From the NCBI RefSeq assembly GCF_009668025.1, contig NZ_WJXZ01000006.1, positions 124,001 to 188,000 of the forward strand: a DNA stretch of 64,000 nucleotides. The letters are read 5' to 3'. Below the pieces are notes generated by a model. That model did no database searches, was not told the DNA's origin, and worked only from the letters and a program-made list of their open reading frames with translations. Below are positions 37,566-58,214 of the stretch, piece after piece (positions within the stretch are counted from its first letter, which is position 1; each line of letters opens with the position of its first letter). The position numbers were made by a program, and so were the translations under genes. The DNA comes from Larkinella terrae. Its GTDB lineage: Bacteria > Bacteroidota > Bacteroidia > Cytophagales > Spirosomataceae.

Positions 37566-38030
37566 TTAATACAGGAATTCGTTCAGATTCATTTCGAAAT
37601 TGACCTCCATGCGCCATCCGTAATGCGAATCGGCCCAGAGTAGGCTGACGGCTTCCAGGCGGATGCTGTTCAGATCGCACAGGATGGTTTTGGCGCGGTT
37701 GTCGAGCCGGAGTTTTTTGAGCAGCGTCAGCAGAATCTGGAAGGATTGGGCATAGGCGGCAATCTGGGCGTCGTTGTCGTCGAGCGGGGCCTGCACCAGC
37801 ACCGAAAGACCGGTTTTGTAGACGGCCATGTGGTTAGCGGCAAAGTTGTCGCCGGGTAGAACGATGGGCTGCTCCAGCCAGGCCAGGGGGTAATCGAAGT
37901 CAGGAAAGGAGCGGGCATAGTCCATGCCTTTTTCGACCCCGCCGTAGAGAAAGAATTTTAGATCGGGGTGAGCAGTGGCCCACTGCCGGAAGTAGGCCAC
38001 GTAGGAAGTAAAATCGCCGGAAAGTATCAT
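37566..38030 (-). CDS. Phage tail-region protein, 154 residues
   Basis: Small backbone protein with SYVAYFRQWATAHPDLKFFLYGG at the N-terminus and a long central helix (AQIAAYAQSFQILLTLLKKLRLD) followed by RAKTILCDLNSIRLEAVSLLWAD. No family recognised; by order, between the tail tape-measure side and the tail assembly side, a tail-completion or chaperone role is possible. The A/T-rich secreted-protein cargo (38153-39478) interrupts the backbone upstream of it. Confidence 0.65.
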   Translation of the reverse strand: MILSGDFTSYVAYFRQWATAHPDLKFFLYGGVEKGMDYARSFPDFDYPLAWLEQPIVLPGDNFAANHMAVYKTGLSVLVQAPLDDNDAQIAAYAQSFQILLTLLKKLRLDNRAKTILCDLNSIRLEAVSLLWADSHYGWRMEVNFEMNLNEFLY

Positions 38031-38152: not shown

Positions 38153-39478
38153 CTATGAACCAAAGAACTTGCTAAAATCAACTTTAATACCAAGGTAAGC
38201 CCCTACTTGCGGGGGATATTTTCCGTTTCCTCGAAGATCAAGTCCAATGGTTGCATTAACTTTTGTGAATTTCTCGGTTAATAGGGCTCTTACAAAATAG
38301 AACCACTTCGAAGACCTATCGATTTCTAATATGGGATCACGTCGAGGATTAGTGAGTTCATTAAAAAATAGTTGTTGACGAGCATTAAAGTTATCGGTTG
38401 TTCTTCCTCCAACAGCGTTAAGACTAAAGTTAAATTTATCTTTCTGCTTGACATTCCATAAAACTCCAAGTCCAAAGTAACCATGTGAAAAGGGTAATGT
38501 TATAGTTCGATCAGGTTCAGGAGTACGGTTGCTTCTGAGGACAATCTTTTCATCACGGGGTAATACAATTTTTAATGTGTCAATCTGAACATTTTTTTCA
38601 GATATTTTAGAATTTGACGTTTGGGATAGAAATTCTAGATGACCAAGTATAGAAAGATTATAGTTTTCTCCGGAAAATAGCTCAAAAGTTGGTTGCATAT
38701 AATAAGACCAGCTGGTTAGATTCTCGGAACGGTAACGCTTATAGGTTATACTTTCGTAGGCTGCACCAGAGACAAAGCCTGATTTTGGATCAATTAAAAC
38801 ATTTTTCGGTGGGTAAATTACATTTGAAAAACTAGGGTCATCCATCGTAAAATTTAAATTTGAGATACCGACGGAAATTCCCAATCTACCAATGATATTA
38901 GGCATATAAGCGTTTAAAATTCCTGCGAAATTGGTGAGTTTTGGCTTTTCAAAAAAGCTAAAATTGCTACCCGTTAATAGTGTAAACTGAAAATCGCTTG
39001 AATCAAAGTCTTTCACTTGCTTTTTCTCCAACTTCACTTGTAAAATTACACCATCTTCTTTGATCAGCTCTTCTGGGTCTGATTCGAGACCGATTATAAT
39101 GTTTTTGTTTTTGAATAGGCTATAACTAAACCCCTTCTTAATGATTATTGGTACTCCTATGGTCTCGCTTTGCTGGAAGGAGTGTTCAAGATCAATGAAA
39201 TCGATATACTTATTCAAACTATCAATGTCGAGAGTACCCATTTTTAATAGACTAACTCTAGCCTCAACTATTTTTTCACTTCTTAATTGAACTCTTTTGT
39301 CTTTTAAATTAGCCCCTACCTTTTCATATGTTAGAAAAATTGTGGCATAGGTGTCCTTTGTTGAGTCCACTATTATAGTCAACTCTTTAATATGTTTACC
39401 TTTTTCAGAGAAATAAAGGTCTTGACAAATGGCCTGTTGGAAGAAGAAGGCAAATAAGAAAAATAAAAGTAGCTTCAT
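38153..39478 (-). CDS. Cargo: secreted barrel-like hypothetical protein
   Basis: A 441-residue protein in an A/T-rich island, with a typical signal peptide (LLLFFLFAFFFQQAICQ). The rest alternates charged and hydrophobic strands (IKELTIIVDSTKD, FQFTLLTGSNFSFFEKP, GLGVLWNVKQKDKFNFSLNAVGG) and ends with repeated R-G-x-G/VGAYLGIKVDF, like an outer-membrane barrel. It looks bacterial rather than virion-encoded, on the same strand as the backbone but in foreign base composition. It may be a lysogenic-conversion gene altering the cell surface (inference). No family recognised. Confidence 0.7.
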   Translation of the reverse strand: MKLLLFFLFAFFFQQAICQDLYFSEKGKHIKELTIIVDSTKDTYATIFLTYEKVGANLKDKRVQLRSEKIVEARVSLLKMGTLDIDSLNKYIDFIDLEHSFQQSETIGVPIIIKKGFSYSLFKNKNIIIGLESDPEELIKEDGVILQVKLEKKQVKDFDSSDFQFTLLTGSNFSFFEKPKLTNFAGILNAYMPNIIGRLGISVGISNLNFTMDDPSFSNVIYPPKNVLIDPKSGFVSGAAYESITYKRYRSENLTSWSYYMQPTFELFSGENYNLSILGHLEFLSQTSNSKISEKNVQIDTLKIVLPRDEKIVLRSNRTPEPDRTITLPFSHGYFGLGVLWNVKQKDKFNFSLNAVGGRTTDNFNARQQLFFNELTNPRRDPILEIDRSSKWFYFVRALLTEKFTKVNATIGLDLRGNGKYPPQVGAYLGIKVDFSKFFGS

Positions 39479-39728: not shown

Positions 39729-40589
39729 TTAACCGCCAATCGAATCGCGGTATTTTTCCATTTCCTTTTCCATTCGCTCGGTTTCCCGTTTAATCTTCAG
39801 GTTGTTGTCCCTCAGAAATAGCCAGACGGTGTGCACGTTTTGTTTGCAGACCTGATCGAAGTTGCCAAAAACGCCCAGTTTGGCAATGTCCATCAGTGAG
39901 GTCAGAATGCCTTCTCCGTTTTTGTACAGGGGCGGCTCCTCGGACGCATCTTCGTCGTAAACATCCTGGTAGTTCTCAAAAAACCGGTTGTTCATCCACT
40001 CAAAGTATTTTAAAACCGCCATTACCTGCCCAATGGTGAGCTTCTGAAACTTGCGGGCGCGCTCGTCGGCCAGTACCGAGTTGAACTCTTCGCGCAGATC
40101 ACCAGTCCAGTCGGCCGACTGACGGAAGGTCTCGGCATCCTTGCGGATTGGGCGGCACAAGGTGGCAATCAGCGTATAGACAGCCAGCGTGTTGGGTTGT
40201 TCGGGCCGGGTGTAGGCCAGGTAGTGGATGTTGGCCATCGCAATTTCAATCGCCGAGGTGTTGCTGTAGTTTGGCTCGGGTAAATTATACCGAACCCCGT
40301 CAATCTCGAACCAGTCCAGGGGCTTGTGTTGCAAGGGCGTCTGCCAAAGCCAGCGGGTGAGTTGGCCCAGCCGGTAGCGTTGTTCGGAGCTGAGCTGTCG
40401 ATGGATTTTCGGGGGAATGGGCATCAGCACCGTCAGGGCGCGGGCCTTCAGGTCGGCTCGCTCTTTCAGCTCCAATAGGTCAACCGGCAACAGCGTCAGG
40501 GGCAACAGGGTTACGATCTGGCGGCTGGTGCATTCGTGCCACGCCTGGGGTACCGGATAGGCGAGGGCGTTGAGCCAGACGGTTTTCAT
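39729..40589 (-). CDS. Phage protein, possible tail assembly factor
   Basis: Started at 40589 (MKTVWLNALAYPV), where the ATG overlaps the stop of the upstream lysin as ATGA; the frame extends upstream to 40709 but the extra residues have no coding character. The 286 residues include a helical middle (SSEQRYRLGQLTRWLW, DLREEFNSVLADERARKFQKL) and a strongly charged Lys/Glu C-terminus (KIKRETERMEKEMEKYRD). By position between the lysis cassette and tail genes it may be a tail assembly chaperone, but no motif proves this. Confidence 0.65.
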   Translation of the reverse strand: MKTVWLNALAYPVPQAWHECTSRQIVTLLPLTLLPVDLLELKERADLKARALTVLMPIPPKIHRQLSSEQRYRLGQLTRWLWQTPLQHKPLDWFEIDGVRYNLPEPNYSNTSAIEIAMANIHYLAYTRPEQPNTLAVYTLIATLCRPIRKDAETFRQSADWTGDLREEFNSVLADERARKFQKLTIGQVMAVLKYFEWMNNRFFENYQDVYDEDASEEPPLYKNGEGILTSLMDIAKLGVFGNFDQVCKQNVHTVWLFLRDNNLKIKRETERMEKEMEKYRDSIGG

Positions 40590-41140
40590 GGGCGGGCTTG
40601 CCAGTACGGGCTGATCTGGTTGACGATGAGCTTGATTTCCCGCATCCGACGGCGGGTTTTGTAGACGCCCCCAATGCCGTTGGTGCCGCCGGTATTGAAA
40701 CCGATGCAATCGATGGATTCGGCTTCGGGGTCCCAGCGGGTCTGGGCGAAGCCTTCAATGTGGCTGGCAAACAAACTGACGCCATCCATCAGCATCGGTT
40801 TTTGACCGACCCGCTGATTGCCGCGCGTGCTGCGCCGGTAGACGATCCTTTTGGAATTCGCAAACCAACTGGCCACACTGCCGGGGCTGGCGATGGGTAG
40901 TTTGACGCCGTTGCGCAGGTGGCACCAGTATAATCCGGAAGCACAATAGTAAGCCCGTTCGGGCAGGCCCAGCGACTTGTTGTACAAGGCGATTTTGGGG
41001 TGATCATTGCGGTTCGTGCGTTCGCGGAGGCCCACCTGCGCGCGGGCGGTATCAAAAATGGCCTGTCGCAGCGTGCCTTCATCAGCGAAGGTGAGACTGG
41101 TCAGGGCCAGGGTATAGGGGTTCGATTTGGCCGGTTTCAT
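40586..41140 (-). CDS. Endolysin-like peptidoglycan amidase/endopeptidase (CHAP-like)
   Basis: Probable lytic enzyme of the phage. The ATGA overlap with the upstream stop at 41137-41140 fixes the start at 41140 (184 residues), rather than the longer frame from 41218. A CHAP/NlpC-like core is suggested by ARAQVGLRERTNRNDHPKI, ALYNKSLG and the Cys motif YYCASGLYWCHL, followed by a later His-containing block (ASHIEGFAQTRWD). TNRNDHPKI and the YCA Cys are the likely metal-free catalytic surroundings. It follows two membrane-protein genes, as in a holin/lysin cassette. Confidence 0.72.
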   Translation of the reverse strand: MKPAKSNPYTLALTSLTFADEGTLRQAIFDTARAQVGLRERTNRNDHPKIALYNKSLGLPERAYYCASGLYWCHLRNGVKLPIASPGSVASWFANSKRIVYRRSTRGNQRVGQKPMLMDGVSLFASHIEGFAQTRWDPEAESIDCIGFNTGGTNGIGGVYKTRRRMREIKLIVNQISPYWQARP

Positions 41141-45080: not shown

Positions 45081-45908
45081 CTATTTTATTTTTATTATTT
45101 CATCGACTACTTTGATCAATAAAGCCATGACTGAAATTAGAGTCGAAAAATAAATGAATGGCGATTTTTCTGGTAATGCAGCACCTTTAAGAACACTTGA
45201 TAATATAATTTTTTGTGTTGTTAGAATTGATTTTAACAAAAACATAAATAACAAATATATAAGTATTATTGCCCAAGGCGAAATACATATTAATGTGTAA
45301 TTAATAGAAAAAGATAAATTATCAATTCCATATCCGTTTACTGGATTACCAAGGATAGTTAAAACAAAGGAGAATAGTAAAATGTGAATTATTAGAACTA
45401 ATAATAGAGTGAAGACAGAAATAGAAATAACAATAAGTTGATAAATGTTTGATTTTGCGTTGTTCCACCTATCAAGAACATTAATTACAAGTAAACCATT
45501 TAATAAACAAAATGAAATTGCCCAAATTAAAAAAAAAGCCCATCCAATAGCGCTCAAATTGTCAGATAAATCAAACCAACTTATTAAATAATTATAGAAT
45601 CCATCATTAAATGGAATGCCGTAATATTTTCGTGACAAATACAATGTATAAATCAATATAAAAGGCAATATTAAAAGTATGAATAATAAAATAATCAATC
45701 TTGCTTTCGTGCTTTTTAACAATAACAAAGTGCGTTCTAAAGCAATCTTTGGAAAGTTTGGGACTTTTGGCCTTTCTACATAGGCAAGCATTTTTTTTAC
45801 CCACTCTCTCGCTTTAGATTTTTGTTCCGTATTAATATGAAAATCGTCTAAAAACTTCCCAGTTCCAGTAATAAGTGCACATATGGCTATGTAAAGGCCC
45901 CAATTCAT
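45081..45908 (-). CDS. Cargo: A/T-rich multi-pass membrane protein, hypothetical
   Basis: A 275-residue membrane protein lying between terminase large subunit and the portal side. It has an N-terminal short helix, a basic cytoplasmic stretch (AREWVKKMLAYVERPKVPNF) and five further hydrophobic helices, for example LIILLFILLILPFILIYTLY, AIGWAFFLIWAISFCLL, IVISISVFTLLLVLIIHILL and IILIYLLFMFLLKSIL. Strong A/T bias and Ile/Leu/Lys-rich content set it apart from the backbone. No family recognised. Membrane-active defence effectors look like this, but nothing specific supports that here. Confidence 0.65.
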   Translation of the reverse strand: MNWGLYIAICALITGTGKFLDDFHINTEQKSKAREWVKKMLAYVERPKVPNFPKIALERTLLLLKSTKARLIILLFILLILPFILIYTLYLSRKYYGIPFNDGFYNYLISWFDLSDNLSAIGWAFFLIWAISFCLLNGLLVINVLDRWNNAKSNIYQLIVISISVFTLLLVLIIHILLFSFVLTILGNPVNGYGIDNLSFSINYTLICISPWAIILIYLLFMFLLKSILTTQKIILSSVLKGAALPEKSPFIYFSTLISVMALLIKVVDEIIKIK

Positions 45909-46050: not shown

Positions 46051-47607
46051 CTAAACCACATACAACGTATTCTGCTGCTTGCGGTGGCCGGGCAGGAGCT
46101 GGCGGCATTTGGCCCAGAGCCAGTAGTCCAGGGCGTCGGTGCCGTCGGTGGCGAACTCCCGGTTTTTGAGCTGGCGTTCGGCGGTCTTGTCTTTTTCGAA
46201 GGTATCTCCGATCCTAACGGGGGTGCTCTGAATGGCGATGATGAGCACCTTGTTGGTGTTCTGGTTAATGCGGATACGCGGGGCGCGGGGGTTGGATTCT
46301 TCCAGCAGTAAGTTAATCAACAGGTATTTGTCCTTATGGCGAGGGTAGGCCGTCAGCTCCCGGCGGAACACCTTCCAGCCCTTCCTGGCCAGGGCCGTGG
46401 CGAACTGGTCAAAGAATGGTTTGTTTTCATTGCTGGTGGCCGCTGAACGGGAACGCCCACCGGGATCACCGTACACAAACACCTCTTTTTTGGCGTGGTT
46501 TTCATAGGTGCTCGTAAACCAGGCGGCTATTTGCAGCACCAGGTTGGTGTCCTGATCATGCAAAACCGGCTTGGTGTATTTGCTGTTGACCACCCGCAGT
46601 TCCCGGTTAATTTCCTGGCCCACCAGCGCCCAGCAGATATCGGCGTTGAAGTCCAGGGAAATATCCAGGGGTTTGTCACTGTGGTAATCATTCGACTGGT
46701 ACAGAGTCAGTCCGGATTTATCGTCGTGCTGGTAACCGTAGCTTTCAAAGTAGCAGTGTTTGCTGGTGCCGAAGGCGTGGTAAAAACAATTGGGCAGTTT
46801 ACCGATCCGCCGGTTGAGGACTTCCACTTCAAACTCCAGCGGGTCCAGCTCTTCCCGCAGTTTATCGGCATAATCCGGAGGCAAGATCTCGGAATTGTCC
46901 ACGTAGGTCGATTCGACGAACAGCGTTTCAGGTGGGGTGCTTTTCAACTGTTCCGCAGAAAATGTTTTCCGCAGCTCCAGCTCTTTTTGCCACAATTCCT
47001 CGGTGTGGTAGATGTGCATGCCCTCCTGGGTCCAGGGCGCGGAGGTGAAATCGAAGAAACCGTGGTGCCAGGGGTCTGAAGAAAACGATTTGTAGCGGTT
47101 GGCGCGGAAGGTGGGTTTGACGACTTTATTCAGGAAATCGGTTTTGATCAGGGCCGATTCGTCGGCCAGCCCACCGTCCAGGTTCAGGCCCCGGTGGGTT
47201 TCGGGCCGGTCCTGGCTGATGAGCTGGAGCGTGGCCCCGGAAATGTGGGTGATGCAATACTGGTAGCCAAGCTTGCCCGGCGCTTTAAACGGTTTGGGCC
47301 AGTGATCCGGCGGACGTACCCCGATTACATAGGTGCCGAACGGATTGGCTTTCGAGTATTCAACCTGGCCCATCAGTTCGAGGGCTTCCTTCAACCCTGG
47401 CAGCACGACCAGATCGAGCTGCACATAAGTCAGGCCGATCAGCCCCCACTTGCTGCGGGGAAAGCGGTCGAAGATCATTCCGGCCTTGAAACCCAGCGTG
47501 GTGGTTTTCCCCGATCCGCGCCCGGCGTTGAAGGTTTTCCGGCGAGCCCGGCTTTTGAGGAACTTGATCTGCTTGGGGTTGGCGTACACTTTGCGGCTCT
47601 CACTCAT
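46051..47607 (-). CDS. Terminase large subunit
   Basis: ATP-driven motor and nuclease that packages phage DNA. The start at 47607 overlaps the upstream stop (ATG inside the TerS end), giving 518 residues. The ATPase has Walker A FNAGRGSGKTT (near residues 26-36) and a Walker B-like GGLADESAL; the C-terminal nuclease carries ISLDFNADIC and ATDGTDALDYWLWA acidic residues. Full length, with no stop or frameshift. In this element it precedes the membrane cargo and the portal-like gene. TerL is the strongest virion marker here and would be the best gene for classification. Confidence 0.9.
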   Translation of the reverse strand: MSESRKVYANPKQIKFLKSRARRKTFNAGRGSGKTTTLGFKAGMIFDRFPRSKWGLIGLTYVQLDLVVLPGLKEALELMGQVEYSKANPFGTYVIGVRPPDHWPKPFKAPGKLGYQYCITHISGATLQLISQDRPETHRGLNLDGGLADESALIKTDFLNKVVKPTFRANRYKSFSSDPWHHGFFDFTSAPWTQEGMHIYHTEELWQKELELRKTFSAEQLKSTPPETLFVESTYVDNSEILPPDYADKLREELDPLEFEVEVLNRRIGKLPNCFYHAFGTSKHCYFESYGYQHDDKSGLTLYQSNDYHSDKPLDISLDFNADICWALVGQEINRELRVVNSKYTKPVLHDQDTNLVLQIAAWFTSTYENHAKKEVFVYGDPGGRSRSAATSNENKPFFDQFATALARKGWKVFRRELTAYPRHKDKYLLINLLLEESNPRAPRIRINQNTNKVLIIAIQSTPVRIGDTFEKDKTAERQLKNREFATDGTDALDYWLWAKCRQLLPGHRKQQNTLYVV

Positions 47608-48130
47608 CCCATTCCAGCCCCTGCTGTTTTTTGTAAACGTTGACGTTGTTGATGAAGACATATTTGCCCGGTTTCTGGAAATCTACCGGGTCCAGCCCCT
47701 GCACTTCCTGTTGATACAGCCCGGCCAGTTCATCGGCTTCACGCCGACATTCGCGGGCTTCCTTGATATCCTTTTCCTTGAAGGCAATGTTCGACAACAA
47801 ATCGTAGTAGGCAATCGACGCTTGCCGTCGGCCTTCTTTGTCGGTTTCTTCGACGGCTCCAAACAGCAGTTTGCATTCTTCGACCAGGTAGCGGGCCATG
47901 CGGTCCTGAATGGCGTAGTCTTTCATGAGCACTGAGCGCACCATATCCTCCGTGCGGCCCATGCGCAGCATCCCCCAGGCTTTGGAATATTGTTCTAACT
48001 TCTGTTGCTCGGATTCGGTAAAGTCCTCGTATGTAGTCTCATTGGCGTAGAACTGGAGGTACCGGTCGAGCTTCGATTCATCAATTTTCAGCAGCCGCTT
48101 GGCCCGTTTGATGGATAGTTTCTTGGTCAT
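47600..48130 (-). CDS. Terminase small subunit-like protein
   Basis: DNA-recognition partner of the large terminase. The start at 48130 (MTKKLSIKRAKRLLKIDE) is chosen over a longer frame to 48178. The 176 residues are helical: an N-terminal basic helix pair fitting a DNA-binding domain, a central WGMLRMGRTEDMVRSVLMKDY helix-turn-helix-like block, and an oligomerisation helix (ASIAYYDLLSNIAFKEKDIKEA). The C-terminus ends next to the terminase large start with an 8-bp overlap. The assignment rests on position and shape; sequence motifs of TerS are weak. Confidence 0.65.
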   Translation of the reverse strand: MTKKLSIKRAKRLLKIDESKLDRYLQFYANETTYEDFTESEQQKLEQYSKAWGMLRMGRTEDMVRSVLMKDYAIQDRMARYLVEECKLLFGAVEETDKEGRRQASIAYYDLLSNIAFKEKDIKEARECRREADELAGLYQQEVQGLDPVDFQKPGKYVFINNVNVYKKQQGLEWDE

Positions 48131-48681: not shown

Positions 48682-49254
48682 CTACTCAAACAACCCATTC
48701 CCCTCCGGATTCATAATCGCTTTCATGGCCTTCGTCCGCATTTCCTGCTCACCATCCACATCCCGGTGCGGATGCAATAGCGTGCCTTCGTCGAAGAAAT
48801 GCGCCCAGGACCGGCCCAGCTTTCGACCGCGATCGTTGTGCTTGTCGAGCGCAAAGTCCGGAATTTCCTGCCGACGGAACGGATGCGTCAGCCAGGCCCA
48901 TAGCAGCGTCCAGTCAATCATTCGGCTTTTGCGCGCGCGGCAGAGCCGCAGCACCGCCTGAGTCAGAAACAACCGCTGAGGCTCGTTCTTGTCCTCCTTC
49001 TTTTTGGCCTGTTCCCGATGCATTTCGTAAAGTGCCCAGATCTCGGCGGGGAGTCCCGGTTCAGCCAGGCCCACGTCTTCGCTGGTCATGATCCGCAGCC
49101 GCTTCCAGACGTATTCGACAAAACCGGAATCGTACAGCTCCACCACCCAGAACATGGCCTGCTCTTCCAGGCCCCGACGGATGCACTTTTGCAAGGCACT
49201 GCTGCACTCAAAAAAATCGTACCCCTTCCGGGTGCGTATGTCGTACTTGCTCAT
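48682..49254 (-). CDS. Stand-alone RarA/MgsA C-terminal-like protein
   Basis: A 190-residue protein whose first 75 residues (ALQKCIRRGLEEQAMFWVV, YVWKRLRIMTSEDVGLAEPG) resemble the C-terminal clamp-loader/oligomerisation region of RarA (MgsA) AAA ATPases, in which a helix pair around S-E-D-[IV]-G-L is conserved. The AAA motor itself is absent here and in the neighbours. The rest (WTLLWAWLTHPFRRQEIPDF, HAHFFDEGTLLHPHRD) is unassigned. A role in phage replication or in interfering with host RarA is possible. The ATG overlaps the SymE-like stop by 4 bp. Confidence 0.55.
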   Translation of the reverse strand: MSKYDIRTRKGYDFFECSSALQKCIRRGLEEQAMFWVVELYDSGFVEYVWKRLRIMTSEDVGLAEPGLPAEIWALYEMHREQAKKKEDKNEPQRLFLTQAVLRLCRARKSRMIDWTLLWAWLTHPFRRQEIPDFALDKHNDRGRKLGRSWAHFFDEGTLLHPHRDVDGEQEMRTKAMKAIMNPEGNGLFE

Positions 49255-49430
49255 CGTTCAATGACAATTTTGTTGTGTTCCACCCAAACTTTTACCGAAT
49301 CACCCCGGCTAAAACCGGCGCTGGTCATCCACTTACCCGCCAGCAGGAGCGACGGCACCAGTTCGGTTTGCTGCCGGATCGTCCAACGGTGTTTTTTTCG
49401 TTGTTGATACCCAATTTTTCGTACTTTCAC
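49251..49430 (-). CDS. SymE-like small toxin/AbrB-fold protein
   Basis: A 59-residue gene starting at a GTG (49430) that ends by overlapping the ATG of the RarA-C-like gene (ATGA). The pattern VPSLLLAGKWMTSAGFSRGD followed by SVKVWVEHNKIVIER matches the SymE family, a SpoVT/AbrB-fold group known as the SOS-induced toxin of the type I SymE/SymR system. No antisense SymR-type RNA is obvious; the + strand opposite the gene and its 5' side would be the place to look. Family assignment is from pattern; function is inferred. Confidence 0.62.
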   Translation of the reverse strand: MKVRKIGYQQRKKHRWTIRQQTELVPSLLLAGKWMTSAGFSRGDSVKVWVEHNKIVIER

Positions 49431-49476
49431 GGCTCAGGTATTTATTCCGGGTCGCCGGCGCGATTAACTTTCAGTG

Positions 49477-49506
49477 AAAGCCCGGAAGCCCTTGCATCCG
49501 GGCTTT
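49477..49506. terminator. Terminator hairpin
   Basis: AAAGCCCGGA/TCCGGGCTTT stem with T5 on the plus strand; on the minus strand it directly follows the small gene ending at 49510 and separates it from the SymE-like gene. Confidence 0.6.
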
Positions 49507-49509
49507 TTG

Positions 49510-49677
49510 TCAATCGAAGAGTCTGGTTTGCTTTTCAACGTGGTTGAACAGCGGGAGGTCCAGGAAACCCTGGTTCTCACTTTTACGTAGCCCCACTCGG
49601 GTGGGCTGGCTCATCAGAAACTCGTTCAGGAGCTTGACCTCAAAGGTCGTCAGTTTGGCTTTCTTTGGCTTTTTCAT
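49510..49677 (-). CDS. Small phage protein, 55 residues
   Basis: Starts at 49677 (MKKPKKAKLTTFEVKLLNEF), its ATG overlapping the stop of the previous small gene as ATGA. Basic N-terminus then mixed content ending EKQTRLFD. No family recognised; the overlap and position in the control-region operon support it as real. Confidence 0.5.
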   Translation of the reverse strand: MKKPKKAKLTTFEVKLLNEFLMSQPTRVGLRKSENQGFLDLPLFNHVEKQTRLFD

Positions 49678-49838
49678 CCGCGTTTTAGCTGTTTGTACAC
49701 TTTGTCCAGGGCAATTTCTCCGCGCACGACTCGCCAGGCGACTTTCAAACTCATACTCATCGTGACGATGCCGCGCCGGAACAGCGCCCAGGCCGTGGTC
49801 ATGATCGACCGAAGCTTCGTTAACCATTCTTTTCTCAT
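49674..49838 (-). CDS. Small phage protein, 54 residues
   Basis: Starts at 49838 (MRKEWLTKLRSIMTTAWALF), just 40 bp past one copy of the duplicated control element (49879-49916). The content is strongly basic and partly hydrophobic (RRGIVTMSMSLKVAWRVVRG). Its stop overlaps the next gene. Unknown function; likely a regulatory or small DNA-binding product. Confidence 0.5.
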   Translation of the reverse strand: MRKEWLTKLRSIMTTAWALFRRGIVTMSMSLKVAWRVVRGEIALDKVYKQLKRG

Positions 49839-49878
49839 TGATTTCCAGATAGTTATTGTTAATTGATGGTGTAAAAAT

Positions 49879-49916
49879 CTCCCGGCAGAACGGATTAAAA
49901 AAGCGTTTTTCCTGAA
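49879..49916. repeat. Duplicated control element, copy A
   Basis: 38 bp matching 51506-51543 at 36 positions; core CAGAACGGATTAAAAAAGCG, including the A/T-rich palindrome AAAAAAGCGTTTTT. It lies just upstream (minus strand) of the gene starting at 49838. Probably a shared promoter/operator. Confidence 0.65.
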
Positions 49917-49941
49917 TTATTTTTCGCTAAAACGCTGATTA

Positions 49942-50739
49942 TCAGAACAATATAAGTTGTCCGTTTTGCGCTACCTGCCCAATGTGCTGGGGTTCTTTGT
50001 ACGCGCCCTGGGGCCGGGTTTGGGCTGGTTTGGACGGATCGGGTTGAAGCTGTTTTTTCTCCCGAAATGACCCGAACAGGTAGGAATCTTCCGGCTCAAT
50101 GGTTTCAATGGACGGACACCCGGCCAGGGGCAACAGGCGGTTGACGCGGTAGCCAAACCGCCATTCCCATTTCAGGCTGTCCATGCACACGGCTTCACCT
50201 TCGCAACCGTGCAGGGCCATGTTCACCGCCGTCATGCGCGCGCAGATCGGGTCCAGATCGGCGGCAAAATGGTAGTTGCCCGGCGCCAGGGCGTGGAAAG
50301 CCAACAGCAGCCGACCGGAACCACAGGAAGGATCATAAACCTTCTGGCGTTTTCCCTTCAGCGATTCTTCGCAGCCCTGCAGGCGCACCATCAGGTCGCA
50401 GACGTGTTCGGGGGTGAAGAATTGACCCAGCAGTTGCGATTTCCCGCGTGAGGTCAGGCATTCGTAATAGTTGCCCAGGCCGTCGTACCAGTCGGTGTCA
50501 GTCACGATCTGGCTTTGCTGCAGCAGGATTAGTTCCTGGGTCAATTGGACAAACCGGTCCAGATCGCCGTACTGCTGTTTCAGTCGCTCGTAGACGCCAA
50601 CCCGTTGGGGCATGAACGATTCGGTCAGGAACTCGACGAAATCGCTGAAAAAGCTGGAGTAGTTGAAGCCGTGCTCCATTTGGGAGAATAGCTTGTTAAA
50701 CGCACGGAGTTCGTGCGGTACAACGGTGGATTTTAACAT
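49942..50739 (-). CDS. N-6 DNA methylase-like protein lacking the catalytic NPPY motif
   Basis: A 265-residue protein of the N6-adenine methylase type found in Bacteroidota mobile elements. It has the SAM-binding motif I as VYDPSCGSGRLLLAFHA (residues 134-150), preceded by LLGQFFTPEHVCDLMVR as in type I modification enzymes, and the DLDPICARMTAVNMALHG block. Where family members carry NPP[YF], it reads CMDSLKWEWRF and continues without a match. It may be catalytically dead, or use another arrangement. No target-recognition domain and no restriction nuclease are adjacent. Possible roles are anti-restriction or regulation. Confidence 0.7.
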   Translation of the reverse strand: MLKSTVVPHELRAFNKLFSQMEHGFNYSSFFSDFVEFLTESFMPQRVGVYERLKQQYGDLDRFVQLTQELILLQQSQIVTDTDWYDGLGNYYECLTSRGKSQLLGQFFTPEHVCDLMVRLQGCEESLKGKRQKVYDPSCGSGRLLLAFHALAPGNYHFAADLDPICARMTAVNMALHGCEGEAVCMDSLKWEWRFGYRVNRLLPLAGCPSIETIEPEDSYLFGSFREKKQLQPDPSKPAQTRPQGAYKEPQHIGQVAQNGQLILF

Positions 50740-50753
50740 GGTAGGAGAGAAAT

Positions 50754-50780
50754 AAAAAAGCCCCGCGTGTCGGCGGGGCT
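50754..50780 (-). terminator. Terminator after the split gene
   Basis: AGCCCCGC/GCGGGGCT stem followed on the minus strand by a T-run, just before the methylase gene (reading direction minus). Confidence 0.75.
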
Positions 50781-50787
50781 GTGGGTT

Positions 50788-51465
50788 TCAGAACGGGACG
50801 GCTTCGGCTTCGGTAGCCGGTCGGCTAAAGTAGGCCGACCGCAGCAGGTGATCGACGTAGTAGTCTTTGATCCGGAAACCGGTCAACTCTTTAAACCGGT
50901 CTTCGAGTTGCTCCCGAATCAGTAGGGCCGGAGATTTGTAACTGTTGGGTTTATACGTCCGGACGAACTCCAGAATAGCATCAATGCTGACCTGCGCAGG
51001 CGCGATCGCGTTGATTTCTTCCACTTGCACGTCGATGTTCCGACCGGTTTTCTTAAACCAGCCGCGCGACACATCGGGGAGCCAGTTTTTGTCGCCCCAT
51101 CACTCGAAGTCTTCTTTGGGGAATGGAGCCAGGTGTTCATCCAGTACGCTCTCCACCGACACCCATGCGTCGGCATCGGCGCAGGCCTGTTGCCAGAGTT
51201 TGGCGATTTCCAGCGGATTCTGGGATTGTTCAAACAGGTGCTCATCGACGCGCTCCGGATCGATGTCGGGTGGGAGCGGGGTTGGCATCAGGGCCAGGTG
51301 GGCCACGGTGTAGATGCCCAATTTGGCACACACCATTTTGTCCAGGGTGTTGATGTGCATTCGGCGGCCGACCTCGCTGGCCCACTCGTAATACTCTTTT
51401 TCGGACTTGCCGGTGGTGGTCAAAAACCGGTCTAAATTCCGGCGCGGAACTGTTGTGTTTTCCAT
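50788..51465 (-). pseudogene. Hypothetical phage gene interrupted by an in-frame TGA
   Basis: Two blocks in the same frame: residues before the stop run to PFPKEDFE and, after a TGA at 51100-51102, the frame stays open with WGDKNWLPDVSRGWFKK and continues to EAEAVPF at 50788. Without the stop this would be a 225-residue protein. The upstream part has a coiled helix (SEKEYYEWASEVGRRMHIN), the downstream part YKSPALLIREQLEDRFKEL. A point change TGG to TGA fits the surrounding TGG TGG codons. It follows control element copy B. No family recognised. Confidence 0.65.
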
Positions 51466-51505
51466 TGATTTACAGACGTTTATTGTTTGAATTGGTCTGT
51501 AAATT

Positions 51506-51543
51506 CTCCCAGCAGAACGGATTAAAAAAGCGTTTTTTCTGAA
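51506..51543. repeat. Duplicated control element, copy B
   Basis: Matches 49879-49916 at 36 of 38 positions. Here it lies about 40 bp upstream (minus strand) of the split gene start at 51465, the same spacing as in copy A. Confidence 0.65.
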
Positions 51544-51566
51544 AATTTTGTGTTATTTTGTATTAA

Positions 51567-53555
51567 TTATTCAAACAAAAAAGATCTCATTAAATCGTAA
51601 CTATCAGTTGGAATAAATGGAAAACATCTGCCAATAACCTTGCTCATATGTTTTTGTAATTTTCCTGTTTCTTTATAATGAGGAGAATTATAAATTGGAA
51701 AAGATTTCTTTATAATGCCATCCAACTGATGATTTCCCATTTCTAAGAACCATTTTGGAAGCAGTATAATTTTACCATTTGCATAATATACTTCTTTTCT
51801 ATCAGAATCTTTACTTTTAAAGTAAGGAAACGAATTGTAAATTAATTTCAATATATAATCACTAAATGATTGTAATGCTTTTTCTGACTCATTCCCAATC
51901 AAGTACGGACTAATAGTTCCTAAATCAAATTCAGAAACTACATTGTAAGTGTCCTTTTCAATAAATGAACAAAAAATATAAATGGGATCAAATAGAAAAT
52001 TTTCTAAGGAATATCTGCTAGAATCTCCATGAATAAAAATGTAACTGTCTAATGCTTCGTAATTCTTTTTATCCCAGTCTATAATTCCATAAACAGTTTT
52101 GTTTCCTGCTCCTCTAAATTCATTAACCAAATTAATAACTTTTTCACAAGAACTATCCCCGTAATCACCTGAAATAAAATACAATTTTGTTTCAGGCTTA
52201 CAAGTTCTTGATACTACTTCGTTAATAATTTGATAATAAACAAGATCAGTTGGGCTTTCTACAATTATCTGTTTATGTTTGCGATAATTAATGCTTAAAA
52301 TAGGAATTGTGTTTATTAAAATTTCTAATGCTCTATCTTTATTGACTTTTTTTAATGCAGAATTATTTTCATTAGATAACTGGTAAATAGAATCTTCAGG
52401 AGAAAGGGCGATTGTGGTCGGATTATGAGTCGTAATAAACACTTTAGATTTATTTTTATTAACAACAGTGTCATAAAGCGATTGGATCAAAGTTTGAATT
52501 CCGTCAGGGTGTAAAAAAGCATCAGGTTCATCCAATAAAATTAAATCTGGAAATTTGCTACTCTCATTAAAATTAATGTTCAAAAAAAGTAAAGCATAGA
52601 AACTAAATAAAATTCTTTCACCAGATGATAAATTTTGAAATTCAAGAACTTCTCCTGAAATAGAATTTGTTAAAGAAATAGAGAAATTGCCATTTTTTTC
52701 AAATTCTTTAAAATTAAAGTCTTTTAATCTGAATTTGAACTCATATTCATTTAAGAAGTCATTAAATTGATTGAATGGAGACCTGTTGGCTTTTATGAAT
52801 TCAATATCAGAAATGGAATTATTTTCTTCGCCATATAAGACTTTATTGGTAAAGTTTGTTCTATTTAAATCTCTTCTATATATATATGAGGCAAAAATTT
52901 GTAGAAAATTATTGGTATAATTAGTGTCGTAAAGATATAGGGTTTCCTCATAAGGTAAATTGATAAAGTCCTCAGTAGAAATATTGGACTCATCTAATCC
53001 ATTGTATCTAGATATTTTGAAAATGAATTCGAAAAGATGTCTCTTTTGATTTAAATATTTATTTAGTTCTTGCAAAGCTATTTCATTTGAAATCACTTTG
53101 CCCTTTACTGAGCCTGGAAAGAAACTAAATGAAATAAGTTCATTAATGTATTTTTTAACTTCATCAGTCTGCTTTTCGGGGAACAGATCAAGATAGTTAT
53201 TTTCTATGATTTCTTTAATCGGAATATTAGTATAATAAATTTTATGAATAAAATCTTTAAATTTGCCTTTTAATACATGCCAATCTCGAATAATTATAGA
53301 ATTATAGTCAGACCAATTCTTGAACGAATAGTTTCTTTTATCGAAATCTATAAAATCATACTTGAGAATGGATTCTATGTTTTCACTAAATTTAACTACT
53401 CGAAATTCCGGTAATTTTAAGTTGTCTTCTAAAATAGCTTTCAGAAGTTGTGTTTTTCCACTTCCATTAGTTCCAGTAATTACGACAAAATCAGTTAGCT
53501 TATCGCTCTCAAAAGGTTTTAATGACAAGTAGTCGTTAGTAATTGACAGAATCAT
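51567..53555 (-). CDS. Cargo: AAA ATPase / TOPRIM (DUF4435-like) fusion, candidate anti-phage protein
   Basis: A 662-residue protein in a strongly A/T-rich island. The N-terminal AAA15/21-type ATPase has Walker A GTNGSGKT (residues 28-35), LSSGERILFSFYALLFL and Walker B LILLDEPDAFLHPDG (DEPD 342-345), then THNPTTIAL. After about residue 430 comes a TOPRIM-like domain: Glu433 in IIVESPTDLVYYQ, Asp493 and Asp495 in GIIDWDKKN, then YSLENFLFDP, a hallmark of DUF4435. This is the domain pair of AriA and AriB in the PARIS defence system, here as one chain; OLD-family nucleases are the alternative. It probably degrades or senses phage components; function is inferred. No partner gene is adjacent. 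Confidence 0.75.
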   Translation of the reverse strand: MILSITNDYLSLKPFESDKLTDFVVITGTNGSGKTQLLKAILEDNLKLPEFRVVKFSENIESILKYDFIDFDKRNYSFKNWSDYNSIIIRDWHVLKGKFKDFIHKIYYTNIPIKEIIENNYLDLFPEKQTDEVKKYINELISFSFFPGSVKGKVISNEIALQELNKYLNQKRHLFEFIFKISRYNGLDESNISTEDFINLPYEETLYLYDTNYTNNFLQIFASYIYRRDLNRTNFTNKVLYGEENNSISDIEFIKANRSPFNQFNDFLNEYEFKFRLKDFNFKEFEKNGNFSISLTNSISGEVLEFQNLSSGERILFSFYALLFLNINFNESSKFPDLILLDEPDAFLHPDGIQTLIQSLYDTVVNKNKSKVFITTHNPTTIALSPEDSIYQLSNENNSALKKVNKDRALEILINTIPILSINYRKHKQIIVESPTDLVYYQIINEVVSRTCKPETKLYFISGDYGDSSCEKVINLVNEFRGAGNKTVYGIIDWDKKNYEALDSYIFIHGDSSRYSLENFLFDPIYIFCSFIEKDTYNVVSEFDLGTISPYLIGNESEKALQSFSDYILKLIYNSFPYFKSKDSDRKEVYYANGKIILLPKWFLEMGNHQLDGIIKKSFPIYNSPHYKETGKLQKHMSKVIGRCFPFIPTDSYDLMRSFLFE

Positions 53556-53733
53556 TGGATGTTTTAAGTTTTTGAAAAATTATATTAAAGGTGCCTTACC
53601 ATCAATCTTTTAGACTATTTTAAATTACAACAATCGATTTCAGATTGTAAAGGAATGATTTGAGAGAATTTTAATTTGTAAATACTACATAATAGTGGTC
53701 GATTATTATATTTTTAATCAAATTGTATACATT

Positions 53734-54474
53734 TCAAAATGGTAGCTTCATAGTCTTCTGAAACGGATGTTTTGGCTTCGCCTTCCCACCAGCTTTTTTC
53801 AAAGTAACCACTTCTTTCCCGAACACCCGCTGAAGATAGTTAAAATCTTTCTCTTCCGCATCCAAATTCCGAAACTCGGCCAACCCGCCCGCGTTAACGA
53901 ACGTATCCTTCTGAGCAAAGTAAAACCGGGTATCCTTCCAGATCAGACGGTGTTCGTAAGCGTTCAGGCAACTGATCCAGTAATCCTCGTTGCATTTGAT
54001 CTCCGGCGAATACCATAATTTACTTCCGGCCAGCACGCCGTGCGCGCAACCGGTCACGTAGCCACTGAGTTGAATCGGGTTCAGCGAGTTGTAAGAAACC
54101 GGTGTCGGGCTGGAGCTGAAGCCGAACAGATACGCTCCGGCATGGCGGGCGGCATCGGAGGTGGCCTGGATAATTTCCCGGGCGGTCAGTTCGTCAACAT
54201 CGGCGGACTCGCCCGGCTGGGTATATAGCCGCCGGAAGGCGGTAATGTCGTCATCGAGCATGAACACGCTGCCGAAATGCTTAATGATCCAATCACGCTT
54301 GCGGGCCAGGCCCACCACCGAATCCGGGTGGGTCACAATCTCGTCTTTCGGGTTACAGAGCCGGTAGGCTTTCGCCTGGCTTTCCGGAACGCAGATGATG
54401 GCGCCAGCCACCACGCTGGTGGTTAGCACGCGCGTGTGGCGTTTGTGGCTGGGAATTACGATCTGGCATTCCAT
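53734..54474 (-). CDS. Glycosyltransferase-like (TAGT-type) phage protein
   Basis: A 246-residue protein with a GT-A-like fold: it starts QIVIPSHKRHTRVLTTSV and carries a DDD metal motif (FMLDDDITAF, Asp74-76), as in sugar-nucleotide transferases. The beginning matches the TET/JBP-associated glycosyltransferases of phages, which add sugars to modified bases; the J-base context (TET/JBP dioxygenase) is absent from the window. It overlaps the ParB-like gene upstream by 19 bp, so the two are co-translated. Substrate unknown; a DNA-base target is an inference from family and neighbours. Confidence 0.65.
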   Translation of the reverse strand: MECQIVIPSHKRHTRVLTTSVVAGAIICVPESQAKAYRLCNPKDEIVTHPDSVVGLARKRDWIIKHFGSVFMLDDDITAFRRLYTQPGESADVDELTAREIIQATSDAARHAGAYLFGFSSSPTPVSYNSLNPIQLSGYVTGCAHGVLAGSKLWYSPEIKCNEDYWISCLNAYEHRLIWKDTRFYFAQKDTFVNAGGLAEFRNLDAEEKDFNYLQRVFGKEVVTLKKAGGKAKPKHPFQKTMKLPF

Positions 54475-55076
54475 TGGGTCTGAAACTGGTTAGCGGTGAT
54501 AACGTGAGTTTTGCCGATTTTGGTGGAAGCTTTGTAGCAGCGCATTGTCTCGACGCCCAGTTGCTCGGCCACGTTGTTCTCGTCGATCTCATTCGTGCAG
54601 ACAATGATGAAGGCAGTGTACTTCTCCGAAAACTTGGCTACAATCGGCATTTCCGGTTTTTCGTCCTCCGGCAACGCTTCCTTCAACTGCTGCTCCAGAT
54701 CGCTCAGGTCGATGCCGTAACTGCCCAGGTCCACGAAATCGGAAAAGTCCGACTGGAGCAGCAGTTTGTCCCACTCGCCGAAGGTGCTGTTCTCGATCAC
54801 GGAAATTTCCTTGAACTCGGCTTCGGTCAGTTTGCGGGTAGCCACGCGCACGTCGATCATCTCGTCGCCTTTGCCCATCGCCAGCATCACTTTGCACCGC
54901 TGGTGACCGGCAATCAGTGTGCCGTCGGCATCTACCACCGGCAGGCCGATCAGGCCAAACTGGCCGATTTTGGTTTCGAGTTCCCGCTGTTTGGCGGCCG
55001 TAATTTTTCGGGGATTCTTTTCGTAGGGCACCAGGTCCTGCACCCGGCGTTTTTCAGTCGTAAATAACTCAGTCAT
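54456..55076 (-). CDS. ParB-like nuclease-domain protein
   Basis: Started at 55076 (MTELFTTEKRRVQDLVPYEK); the frame extends upstream by 5 residues. The 206-residue protein has a ParB N-terminal domain with NPRKITAAKQ, FGLIGLPVVDADGTLIAGHQR (GHQR residues 57-60) and AMGKGDEMIDVRVATRKL. In phages such ParB domains often sit next to DNA-modifying enzymes, and here a glycosyltransferase-like gene follows with overlapping ends. The C-terminal 90 residues (VAKFSEKYTAFIIVCTNE) are unassigned. Role in DNA modification or processing is inferred. Confidence 0.75.
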   Translation of the reverse strand: MTELFTTEKRRVQDLVPYEKNPRKITAAKQRELETKIGQFGLIGLPVVDADGTLIAGHQRCKVMLAMGKGDEMIDVRVATRKLTEAEFKEISVIENSTFGEWDKLLLQSDFSDFVDLGSYGIDLSDLEQQLKEALPEDEKPEMPIVAKFSEKYTAFIIVCTNEIDENNVAEQLGVETMRCYKASTKIGKTHVITANQFQTQWNARS

Positions 55077-55158
55077 GATTTGCGAACACATGGATGATTC
55101 ACAAACATGGCTCGATCCAATTGACGCTGGTAGGACAAATTAGCCGCAGGAAATAACG

Positions 55159-55530
55159 CTACATAGTTGGTACAAGAGGCTTAAATGCAACTGCCAAAAT
55201 AAAAGCAACTGCAAGAAACGAAACCACCCAGAGCAGGATTGGACCCGATGGCCCCTTCAGCTTAATACCCAATACTGACATTTCCAAGGTTCCGGAAGAC
55301 GATCGGAAGTAGCGGACAACATAGGTGGCTAGGAAAGCCGCTAATAAAACTGTAACGATCCCAGAAATCAGGGGGAATACCTTAACCCATCTTGTAGTGG
55401 CAGCATCAATTCGATCGAATCTGCCATCATAAAAATCTAGTAAGACAACAAAAACAATGACAACAGTAATAATTGAGATGGTAATTGAAAATACCCAGGC
55501 TAACAGCTGGTCAGGTTTCATCTGTTTCAT
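55159..55530 (-). CDS. Cargo: small three-helix membrane protein
   Basis: A 123-residue membrane protein with hydrophobic helices at LLAWVFSITISIITVVIVFVVLL, VFPLISGIVTVLLAAFLATYVV and PILLWVVSFLAVAFILAVAF. Moderately A/T-rich and unlike the backbone genes in content. No family recognised. It lies between the coiled-coil gene and the ParB-like gene, where the backbone is otherwise tight; it may be another inserted conversion gene. Confidence 0.6.
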   Translation of the reverse strand: MKQMKPDQLLAWVFSITISIITVVIVFVVLLDFYDGRFDRIDAATTRWVKVFPLISGIVTVLLAAFLATYVVRYFRSSSGTLEMSVLGIKLKGPSGPILLWVVSFLAVAFILAVAFKPLVPTM

Positions 55531-55624
55531 GAATTTGGCATAATTGTGCTCATAAGCTTCTAACTTTTAGGGATATATGCAAAATAAGTAAGAGAGAATT
55601 TTAGAAAATTAAATTTCCCGATAA

Positions 55625-56257
55625 TCAAAGCGCCTTGAACAGCGCCAGCATCCGTTCCAGCTTTAATTCGGCTTTAGCGATCTGCGTCCGGTAGTGCTGC
55701 TTTTTAGCTTCGGTCGACGAGCGGTCCAGCCCACTGCGGTATTTGCTCAGTTTCGATTTTTCGTAGCGAATCAGCCGGTCCAGCTCAAACTTGTCGGTGG
55801 GCAGCGAGGCCGAAAAACTGTCTTCCACCAGCTTTACCGGCTCCTGGGCGGGTCGGTGGCCGTGGTCCAGGGCGTAGCGGATTTCGTCCTGCTTTTCCAC
55901 CCAGGCCCGGCGAAGCGTCAGAATCTGCCCCACCACATCCGGACAGGCCAATTCATCCGGAATGCTTCCCAGGGAGTTGGACAGTTCGGCTTTCCGGCGG
56001 CTGATCTCGCCCTGCTCGGCCCGGATGGTATTCACCAGAGCGGCCACGGCGGGTGGCAGGCTGGTACCTGGCGGGCGGATCGGTCGGCTGGGTTGGGCCG
56101 GTTCAGAAGTGGGATGTGCCGTCGTGAGGGCTTCGTAGACCAGGCGGGCTTGTTCCACGTCGGCCGGGTTCGCCTGGCCGCTTCGGAGCCGGAGTTTGGT
56201 CAGGTTCCAGGCGGCTTTGGCCTGGGTGCGTTGGTGCTGCAGTTGGGTTTCGGTCAT
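55625..56257 (-). CDS. Coiled-coil phage protein, hypothetical
   Basis: A 210-residue protein, mostly helical and charged, with a Pro-rich linker (PSRPIRPPGTSLPP) and two coiled-coil stretches (RAEQGEISRRKAELSNSL; FELDRLIRYEKSKLSKYR). No family recognised. Its gene order relative to the capsid-like remnant is like that of scaffolding or head-accessory genes in other phages, which is only a positional hint. It is followed closely by the 56266 gene. Confidence 0.55.
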   Translation of the reverse strand: MTETQLQHQRTQAKAAWNLTKLRLRSGQANPADVEQARLVYEALTTAHPTSEPAQPSRPIRPPGTSLPPAVAALVNTIRAEQGEISRRKAELSNSLGSIPDELACPDVVGQILTLRRAWVEKQDEIRYALDHGHRPAQEPVKLVEDSFSASLPTDKFELDRLIRYEKSKLSKYRSGLDRSSTEAKKQHYRTQIAKAELKLERMLALFKAL

Positions 56258-57798: not shown

Positions 57799-58214
57799 TT
57801 ACAGGCCGTAGCTTTCGTTTAGGCTTGGCCCGACCACAGCAGGCTCGGCATCGCCACGTCCATGCCAATCTGGAAGTCCATGACCCACGCCAGGTCCCGC
57901 TCGCGTTTGTTGTAATCGAACTCCAGGTTCGACTGCGCCGACTCGTCATCGTAGAGCCAGGCCACAATGCCGCGCGGCAAAATCAGGGGCGCTTCAAAGG
58001 CGGTCGGGCCGCTGGTCAGCATGTAAGGTTCGACGCAGAATTCGATCACCGTGCCCTCGATGGTCTGCTTCTGAAAACCGGCGTTGTAGGGCAGGGTGCC
58101 GTAGGTCGACCGGTAGTTGCGCTCGTAGGCTTTCAGGTGCGAAAGCGGGGTCAGGCAGATCAGGTCCTGGTAGAAGTACTCGGTCGGCAGCGTGTCGATC
58201 TTAGATCGGTTCAC
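57799..58214 (-). pseudogene. Capsid-like C-terminal remnant, 5' truncated
   Basis: Open from a GTG at 58214, with two in-frame stops just upstream, and no N-terminal half. The content (LICLTPLSHLKAYERNY, PFEAPLILPRGIVAWLYDD, FDYNKRERDLAWVMDFQIGMD) resembles the C-terminal half of a major capsid or similar structural protein. The main frame stops at 57819 (LLWSGQA); one base earlier or later it would read PSLNESYGL to a TAA at 57799, so a second small indel may have cut the very end. The truncation point coincides with the right edge of the element. Confidence 0.5.

Follow-up and report, generated by a model that had tools for sequence, protein, structure and literature searches.

A single-chain ATPase–TOPRIM gene in a truncated prophage of Larkinella terrae is a probable anti-phage system related to PARIS

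The gene at 51567–53555 (minus strand) of the window, by which we mean the whole 64,000-nucleotide stretch of Larkinella terrae DNA analysed here, is probably a prophage-carried single-gene anti-phage system (we put this at about three in four), composed of an ABC-ATPase and a TOPRIM nuclease half that appears closest to AriB of PARIS. Profile comparisons and structural models showed a single chain, a PtuA/AriA-type ATPase followed by a TOPRIM domain of AriB type whose putative acidic site is complete. The comparison of related prophages showed that the gene is cargo in an exchangeable slot of a phage lineage. We infer the anti-phage role of 51567–53555, and as cargo the gene would benefit both the prophage and its host. 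Single-gene AriAB fusions and prophage defence hotspots are already published, as the available text of PMC9122126 records; the gene adds a new, distantly related member to an established type of system.

The gene is an intact open reading frame with an ATG start, encoding 662 aa. Read from the translation, its Walker A motif (GTNGSGKT, residues 28–35, 53451–53474, minus strand) is conserved in the family, and in its Walker B motif (DEPD, residues 342–345, 52521–52532, minus strand) D342 and E343 are invariant and D345 is at least 90% conserved. The C-terminal region (residues 402–662, 51567–52352, minus strand), assigned to the AriB/DUF4435-type TOPRIM fold by AlphaFold2, Foldseek and hhalign, holds three further motifs on the same strand: E433, an invariant putative metal-binding glutamate (52257–52259); the invariant TOPRIM DxD, D493-W-D495 (52071–52079); and YSLENF, residues 515–520 (51996–52013), of which E518 and N519 are at least 90% conserved. 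A preliminary description of this DNA had named all five motifs, the first four with these residue numbers, and we found each of them there. Their conservation goes beyond chance: in the 34-member family alignment, S310, G312, E313, D342, E343, L348, H349, P350, H377, P379, L413, E433, D493 and D495 were invariant (34/34), and G28, N30, G31, G33, K34, D345, E518, N519 and P524 were conserved in at least 90% of the members. A Bacteroidetes-type promoter pattern matched once in the window, with 2.9 matches expected, and not at the gene.

AlphaFold2 modelled the C-terminal 261 residues with a pLDDT of 90.0 and a pTM of 0.85, and the DSSP string of the model, read by eye, had the alternating strand and helix order of the TOPRIM core. 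Upon comparison of this model with 350,542 PDB chains by Foldseek, the sole match at E <= 1e-3 was 8ux9_A, the AriB chain of the PARIS complex, at E 1.3e-4 and probability 0.99 over 289 columns. With a TM-score of just 0.32 and an rmsd of 13.8 Å, the AriB match rests on local structure and rank. Alignment of the C-terminal half by hhalign with four DUF4435 proteins from the same phylum gave a probability of 95 (E 3.7e-8) and paired E433, D493xD495 and E518-N519 with their DUF4435 counterparts, YSLENF falling on YSIEN of the DUF4435 set. The profile of the DUF4435 set itself found the solved AriB at 2.3e-5. When the PDB was searched with a plain sequence profile built from the C-terminal half, neither AriB nor OLD chains were returned, which indicates that the kinship is remote. 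Pfam gave no TOPRIM or DUF4435 (PF14491) match to the window protein at E <= 1; DUF4435 was matched at E <= 0.01 by 5/34 family members (best 6.6e-5), and the own genome held no PF14491 match at E <= 0.001. Judged from these alignments and models, the TOPRIM domain that makes up the C-terminal half belongs to the AriB/DUF4435 type, with remote kinship. The preliminary description had made a TOPRIM fold in this half its test, and both the strand and helix order and the sole PDB match bear it out. Its DUF4435 label fails in the formal sense of a PF14491 match, and its reading of a fused PARIS-like gene stands for the AriB-type TOPRIM and falls short at the same Pfam model.

In the ATPase half, Pfam matched AAA_21 (1.2e-15, 58.8 bits against a cut-off of 27) and AAA_15 (2.8e-13, 50.7 bits against a cut-off of 32.1), and both matches recurred in 34/34 family members. 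By these profiles the N-terminal half belongs to the AAA_15/AAA_21 ATPases of PtuA/AriA type, and its set of ATPase motifs is complete. The best solved relatives found with a profile of this half were the retron Ec83 and Ec78 ATPases and PtuA, followed by AriA at 1.6e-11 and OLD at 2.6e-9. The ATPase half is thus nearer to the PtuA and retron ATPases than to AriA, which is a point against a PARIS-type reading. The AlphaFold2 model of the whole chain, built from the family alignment, had a pLDDT of 82 and a pTM of 0.56. Its best Foldseek alignment was with retron-Eco7 PtuA, and its best structural matches were defence ATPases (retron and Septu PtuA and the retron-Eco8 effector, the last over 781 columns), with low TM-scores of 0.12–0.29 in the best 50 rows. 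SMC heads at ranks 8 and 10 and Rad50 at rank 28 appeared in the same list because the ATPase fold is common to them; the best match was not the housekeeping SMC or repair ATPase against which the preliminary description had wished its reading to be checked.

PADLOC names were less informative. The top four of 89 matches to the window protein were mad3 (7.5e-20), AriAB (1.8e-19), AbiLi and retron ATPase-Toprim_I-B, and the AriAB match covered protein residues 202–528 and a model stretch of only 230–528 of 694. For the family, the best PADLOC model was retron ATPase-Toprim_I-B and not AriAB. We rejected PADLOC AriAB as a specific test, as it matched 148/148 phylum genomes and 14/14 controls via generic ATPases. 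Since many defence ATPases score, we do not regard the PADLOC names as decisive for identity; the run that the preliminary description had proposed did return AriAB, in second place, behind mad3 and by an unspecific model.

We consider it rather unlikely that the gene is instead a Class 1 OLD-type single-gene nuclease, cutting DNA like P2 Old and not an RNA-cutting PARIS-type effector. The chain has the OLD Class 1 architecture of a single gene with an ABC ATPase followed by a TOPRIM, and its domain order, its standing as a solo gene and its prophage position are all as in P2 Old. The whole-chain alignment with the retron-Eco8 effector described above also favours an OLD-type reading, as do Foldseek alignments with giant-virus proteins over 643–786 columns, two of these proteins being annotated as ATP-dependent endonucleases. 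The TOPRIM half argues against it. None of 61 family genomes gave a strict OLD match (E <= 1e-40), so P2 Old was used as the OLD yardstick; its C-terminus aligned with the TOPRIM half at a probability of 5.2 (E 0.0075, from a shallow set of 5 close sequences), compared to 95 for the DUF4435 set, and AriB was the only significant PDB match of the C-terminal model.

The gene lies in a truncated prophage beside tmRNA (26642–58214). The prophage block includes an integrase beside the tmRNA (26642–27922, plus strand), a tape measure (27919–32427, minus strand) and a terminase large subunit (46051–47661, minus strand). At its right end the prophage is cut inside gene I (57819–58214), which keeps residues ~207–330 of a 333-residue relative. 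The missing part of gene I was not recovered by tblastn anywhere else in the window; the prophage is therefore truncated, in agreement with the preliminary description, which had called it defective. No attL/attR direct repeats were found around the prophage, and the longest shared string, 12 bases, was read as chance.

The cargo interval, slot 1 (51552–53733, GC 0.269), is bounded by two conserved phage genes on the minus strand: gene A (53734–54474), glucosyltransferase-like (phrog_842), and gene B (51100–51465), which has no Pfam match. Gene A was matched in 24/222 family genomes, the own genome counted, and in 8 viral loci, one of which is the window's contig. DNA similarity to genome G399 ended at 51551 and that to G428 stopped within the end of gene A, at 53750, and the ATPase–TOPRIM gene is the sole ORF of at least 60 aa within the slot. 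Encoded at 53734–55091 and 49942–50739 are the glucosyltransferase-like product of gene A (phrog_842, 7e-30), a second protein resembling ParB and a third whose DNA-methyltransferase matches are weaker; the genes flanking slot 1 may form a DNA-modification set, and the phage DNA may be modified.

Three other places in this prophage drew our attention. An AT-rich cargo ORF (38153–39478, minus strand, 441 aa, GC 0.35) stands at the site of a G411 homologue described below, and a second AT-rich cargo candidate (45081–45908, minus strand) encodes 275 aa at GC 0.28; neither has a Pfam match. By eye, the product of 45081–45908 is hydrophobic and that of 38153–39478 has a signal-peptide-like start, and both are candidates for superinfection exclusion. 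At 32805–34710, between the tape measure and 34995–35534 and near the tail site occupied in G501 and G528, two plus-strand ORFs in a stretch of GC 0.42–0.47 read by eye as PAS and histidine-kinase-like, possibly a split kinase gene carried as cargo.

The GC of 51567–53555 is 0.274 against 0.515 for the remaining prophage interval, and a recount confirmed the G+C figures of the preliminary description (13/60 in the line at 52321 and 37/60 in that at 46801). That description had taken base composition to mark the gene as acquired. The family gene was AT-richer than its own locus in 41/41 relatives, with a median difference of -0.12; low GC is therefore a family trait that cannot by itself date or show recent acquisition, and we rejected it as proof. 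The evidence for acquisition from AT-richness is weak, and it is synteny, rather than GC, that supports the case for acquired cargo.

Across 35 mapped loci the gene order was kept, and AT-rich ORFs varied at A–B (slot 1) and at TerS–gene D (slot 2). For counting we used 29 loci, after dropping duplicates (L028, L030, L033) and loci with few core genes (L017, L038, L050; the contig of L038 stops short of gene B, and its slot was assigned from gene A alone). The window is not among the 29, and four of the 29 together with L022 come from one genome (G411), so that the loci are not fully independent. With cargo defined as an ORF of at least 90 aa with a GC at least 0.08 under the core mean, slot 1 held such AT-rich cargo in 17/28 prophages and slot 2 in 14/23; a slot 2 without cargo measured 12–153 bp. 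Twelve other adjacent core pairs were each present in at least 11 loci; seven of these had no cargo and the rest had 1 to 3 cases, the highest being A–ParB (3/29) and C–H (2/12). The rarer core pairs gave 0/8 for Portal–TerL, 2/4 for TerL–D (slot 2 with TerS unrecognised) and 2/3 for ParB–H. Genome G411 has five gene A copies, with different slot content at each. This variation in slot 1, together with the kept gene order, upholds the earlier claim that the gene is cargo.

Thirty cargo ORFs, picked as AT-rich or large, were scanned with PADLOC (13 from slot 2, 14 from slot 1 and 3 from other sites, a subset of the mapped cargo), and 20 of the 30 also with Pfam. At E <= 1e-5, 14/30 matched a PADLOC model (14/27 from the two main slots) and 16/30 did not, among them all three from outside these slots; these counts refer to cargo ORFs alone. 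In slot 2, 9/13 matched, namely eight AbiGi proteins and one partial PDC-S31 (7.6e-8). In slot 1, 5/14 matched: a SIR2/PDC-S25 protein (1.3e-158), a trypsin-like protein, a PDC-S47 protein that Pfam assigns to Abi_alpha (5.5e-21) and, from one prophage, two PDC-M64 proteins. The slots have the make-up of a defence hotspot, in that two conserved phage genes flank AT-rich cargo that varies and includes known defence genes, as judged from a scan of the cargo alone. The name RT-Protease_XI for the L041 cargo was rejected, the match being limited to its trypsin-like part. The eight AbiGi (PF10899) proteins of slot 2 belong to L019, L020, L037, L039, L047 (two), L048 and L049; no AbiGii was found among the ORFs scanned, a subset of the neighbours, and Pfam labels AbiGi an antitoxin. 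Three large cargo ORFs of 569–604 aa had no PADLOC match, and one of them is a Peptidase_S74 protein by Pfam. The ORFs L025:5591-7405 (604 aa, GC 0.37) and L022:12801-14510 (569 aa, GC 0.24) had no Pfam or PADLOC match at E <= 0.01 and are candidates for unknown defence genes. The two cargo ORFs of slot 1 at L047:6871-9577 are separated by part of another gene A copy, an arrangement that suggests recombination in the flanking genes as the route by which cargo enters.

The preliminary description had proposed a search for the gene at the same position in other prophages, and one such case was found. The genome G399, from another species of the genus, carries in slot 1 a homologue of 605 aa (28% identity) on the opposite strand, with an open frame. 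Gene A on one side of this homologue has decayed (its best protein match covers residues 155–246, with one internal stop), and the DNA on the other side resembles the B side of the slot. Cargo kept while the phage decays is the pattern expected from host benefit, here in one case.

A near full-length relative is carried on a Planktothrix plasmid (28% identity over 98% of the query), and partial relatives on plasmids of Rhizobium, Croceicoccus, Caballeronia and two others bring the plasmid records to six; the genes of the four named genera are annotated as ATPases of 593–684 aa. A single-sequence search found a relative at E <= 1e-10 in 1/394 other genomes of the phylum, and profile-led scans found at least 34 loci in IMG/VR and 6 loci in genome contigs. 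Searches with exact peptide patterns returned one identical copy in viral contigs, with no close relative confirmed in genome contigs and none in phages. The TOPRIM-half profile identified 22 copies in 21/222 family genomes and matched 4/395 genomes phylum-wide, including the own genome and two marginal ones.

We read the surroundings of 21 of these 22 copies, G569 being left out. Five sit among homologues of the window prophage's genes (the window, G399, G411, G501 and G528), at two further sites besides slot 1 in this or related prophages. The G411 homologue lies between homologues of 39729–40709 and 37566–38030, where the window has its 441-aa AT-rich ORF, and the G501 and G528 copies lie inside the tail module of phages that are only 26–37% identical to the window prophage there. 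The G598 copy is near a tape-measure homologue, three copies are near an integrase 40–43% identical to that of the window, and the protein encoded in G610 has an identical counterpart in an IMG/VR contig; the remaining surveyed copies had no comparable phage-gene or integrase match. The closest homologue, in G398 (44% identity), adjoins a GmrSD restriction gene, and other homologues neighbour a type I restriction subunit at one locus and TIR proteins at another. Among the 41 relatives no neighbour family stood at a constant position, the commonest occurring in 5/41 loci. In the tree, the window grouped with G398 (100/100), G399 with G600, G427 and G416 (99/98), G411 with G610 and L068 (98/98), and G501 with G528 (99/94). 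The branches are long, with 6/26 inner forks unresolved, and the letter composition of the window row is unusual, so the order of the clades is not fixed. The simplest reading of tree and sites would be at least four separate captures by phages.

These surroundings bear on two other explanations. It is highly unlikely that the protein is an effector separated from a non-adjacent partner (a retron reverse transcriptase or MADS components) and nonfunctional alone; the retron type I-B ATPase-Toprim and mad3 are among its best PADLOC models, but the slot has no second ORF of at least 60 aa, Rfam gave no match at E <= 1 over 49000–56000 and hence no retron RNA nearby, and the relatives lack a neighbour family at a constant position. 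Least likely of all is a phage gene that serves the phage's own life (replication, recombination or lysogeny control), since, although the gene is in a phage genome, co-stranded with its neighbours, and has an ATPase fold common to SMC/Rad50-like phage recombination proteins, only the prophage of G399 among the mapped related prophages has a homologue in slot 1, and there on the opposite strand, the copies are sporadic in the family genomes, some stand elsewhere beside restriction genes, and those in prophages fall in separate clades. As names for the system, Gabija was rejected for want of an adjacent GajB helicase (the neighbours A and B are small phage genes with no helicase match), and a retron because neither these neighbours nor the rest of the slot and its Rfam scan supplied a partner.

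If the gene is an anti-phage system, PARIS offers a model of how it might act. In PARIS, according to the available text of PMC12409363 and PMC9122126, the ATPase oligomer senses, a trigger releases AriB from AriA, and the TOPRIM acts as a two-metal RNase on tRNA, with growth arrest. By analogy, ATP-bound heads of the window protein would oligomerise and keep the TOPRIM domains inactive, until a protein or activity of a superinfecting phage alters the ATPase assembly. The effector is tethered and would not be released as AriB is, so that activation would occur in place, via rearrangement or pairing of the TOPRIM domains. The two-metal TOPRIM site would then cleave RNA, probably tRNA, and growth would halt before the invader matures. 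A broader proposal is possible, with the odds somewhat against it: these genes may form a separate, prophage-favoured PARIS-like branch in which the AriB-type nuclease is never released and the switch works in cis, and the cargo slots of the family's phages, with at least four captures at three sites, may be a multi-site defence hotspot in which the ORFs without a match would probably be new defence genes.

Tethered AriAB-like chains put a question to the PARIS release model, as a single chain cannot free its effector without cleavage, and with a compact one-gene representative at a known phage position this question becomes testable. The slots also offer fixed points from which to look for more defence genes in the host family's prophages: several large cargo ORFs match nothing in PADLOC or Pfam.

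Among known systems, the fused AriAB (PADLOC PDLC02981) is a close counterpart. Rousset et al. 2022 (PMC9122126), in its available text, reports ariAB in 5.2% of genomes, with single-gene fusions among them; the preliminary description's account of PARIS as separate AriA and AriB proteins therefore holds for the two-gene form (8ux9) and overlooks these fusions. Like the window protein, the fused AriAB described there joins an AAA_15/AAA_21 ATPase and a TOPRIM effector in one chain with E, DxD and EN motifs, and PARIS likewise occupies variable slots of prophages and satellites. The window protein differs in escaping the DUF4435 Pfam model that found those fusions. It has AAA_15/AAA_21 above cut-off, an AriB-related effector half and the catalytic E and DxD (34/34), and it lacks the DUF4435 (PF14491) match above the Pfam cut-off that, in the same text, defines PARIS; we therefore class the gene as PARIS-like rather than as PARIS itself. 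Compared to two-gene PARIS (PDB 8ux9), the C-terminal model resembles AriB and the ATPase profile matches AriA, but there is one chain rather than two, and freeing the effector would need cleavage. PARIS is further characterised by a hexameric ATPase that recognises an anti-restriction protein and by an effector that cleaves tRNA. OLD Class 1 (P2 Old) and the retron-Eco8 effector likewise place an ABC ATPase before a TOPRIM in one chain, and P2 Old is also prophage cargo, whereas the TOPRIM half of the window protein is DUF4435-like and not P2-Old-like, as far as the shallow P2 Old set shows. The review PMC10568477, in its available text, leaves undecided whether fused AriAB acts like Class 1 OLD. 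HEC-04 and IbfA (PMC12111858) are single ABC-ATPase–TOPRIM chains with reported phage interference, to which we liken the protein by their description in the available text only.

Our literature searches on prophage hotspots (Bacteroidota, Cytophagales, Spirosoma) and on DUF4435/TOPRIM fusions in prophages, with incomplete journal coverage, found no paper naming this phage lineage among the papers listed. The available text of Rousset et al. 2022 (PMC9122126) describes prophage defence hotspots in P2-like phages, P4-like satellites, Vibrionales and Bacillales, which, like the slots here, are small variable defence loci between conserved phage genes. The slots of the present prophages differ from them in phage lineage and host family, and comprise two main slots, one of them AbiGi-rich, together with further sites.
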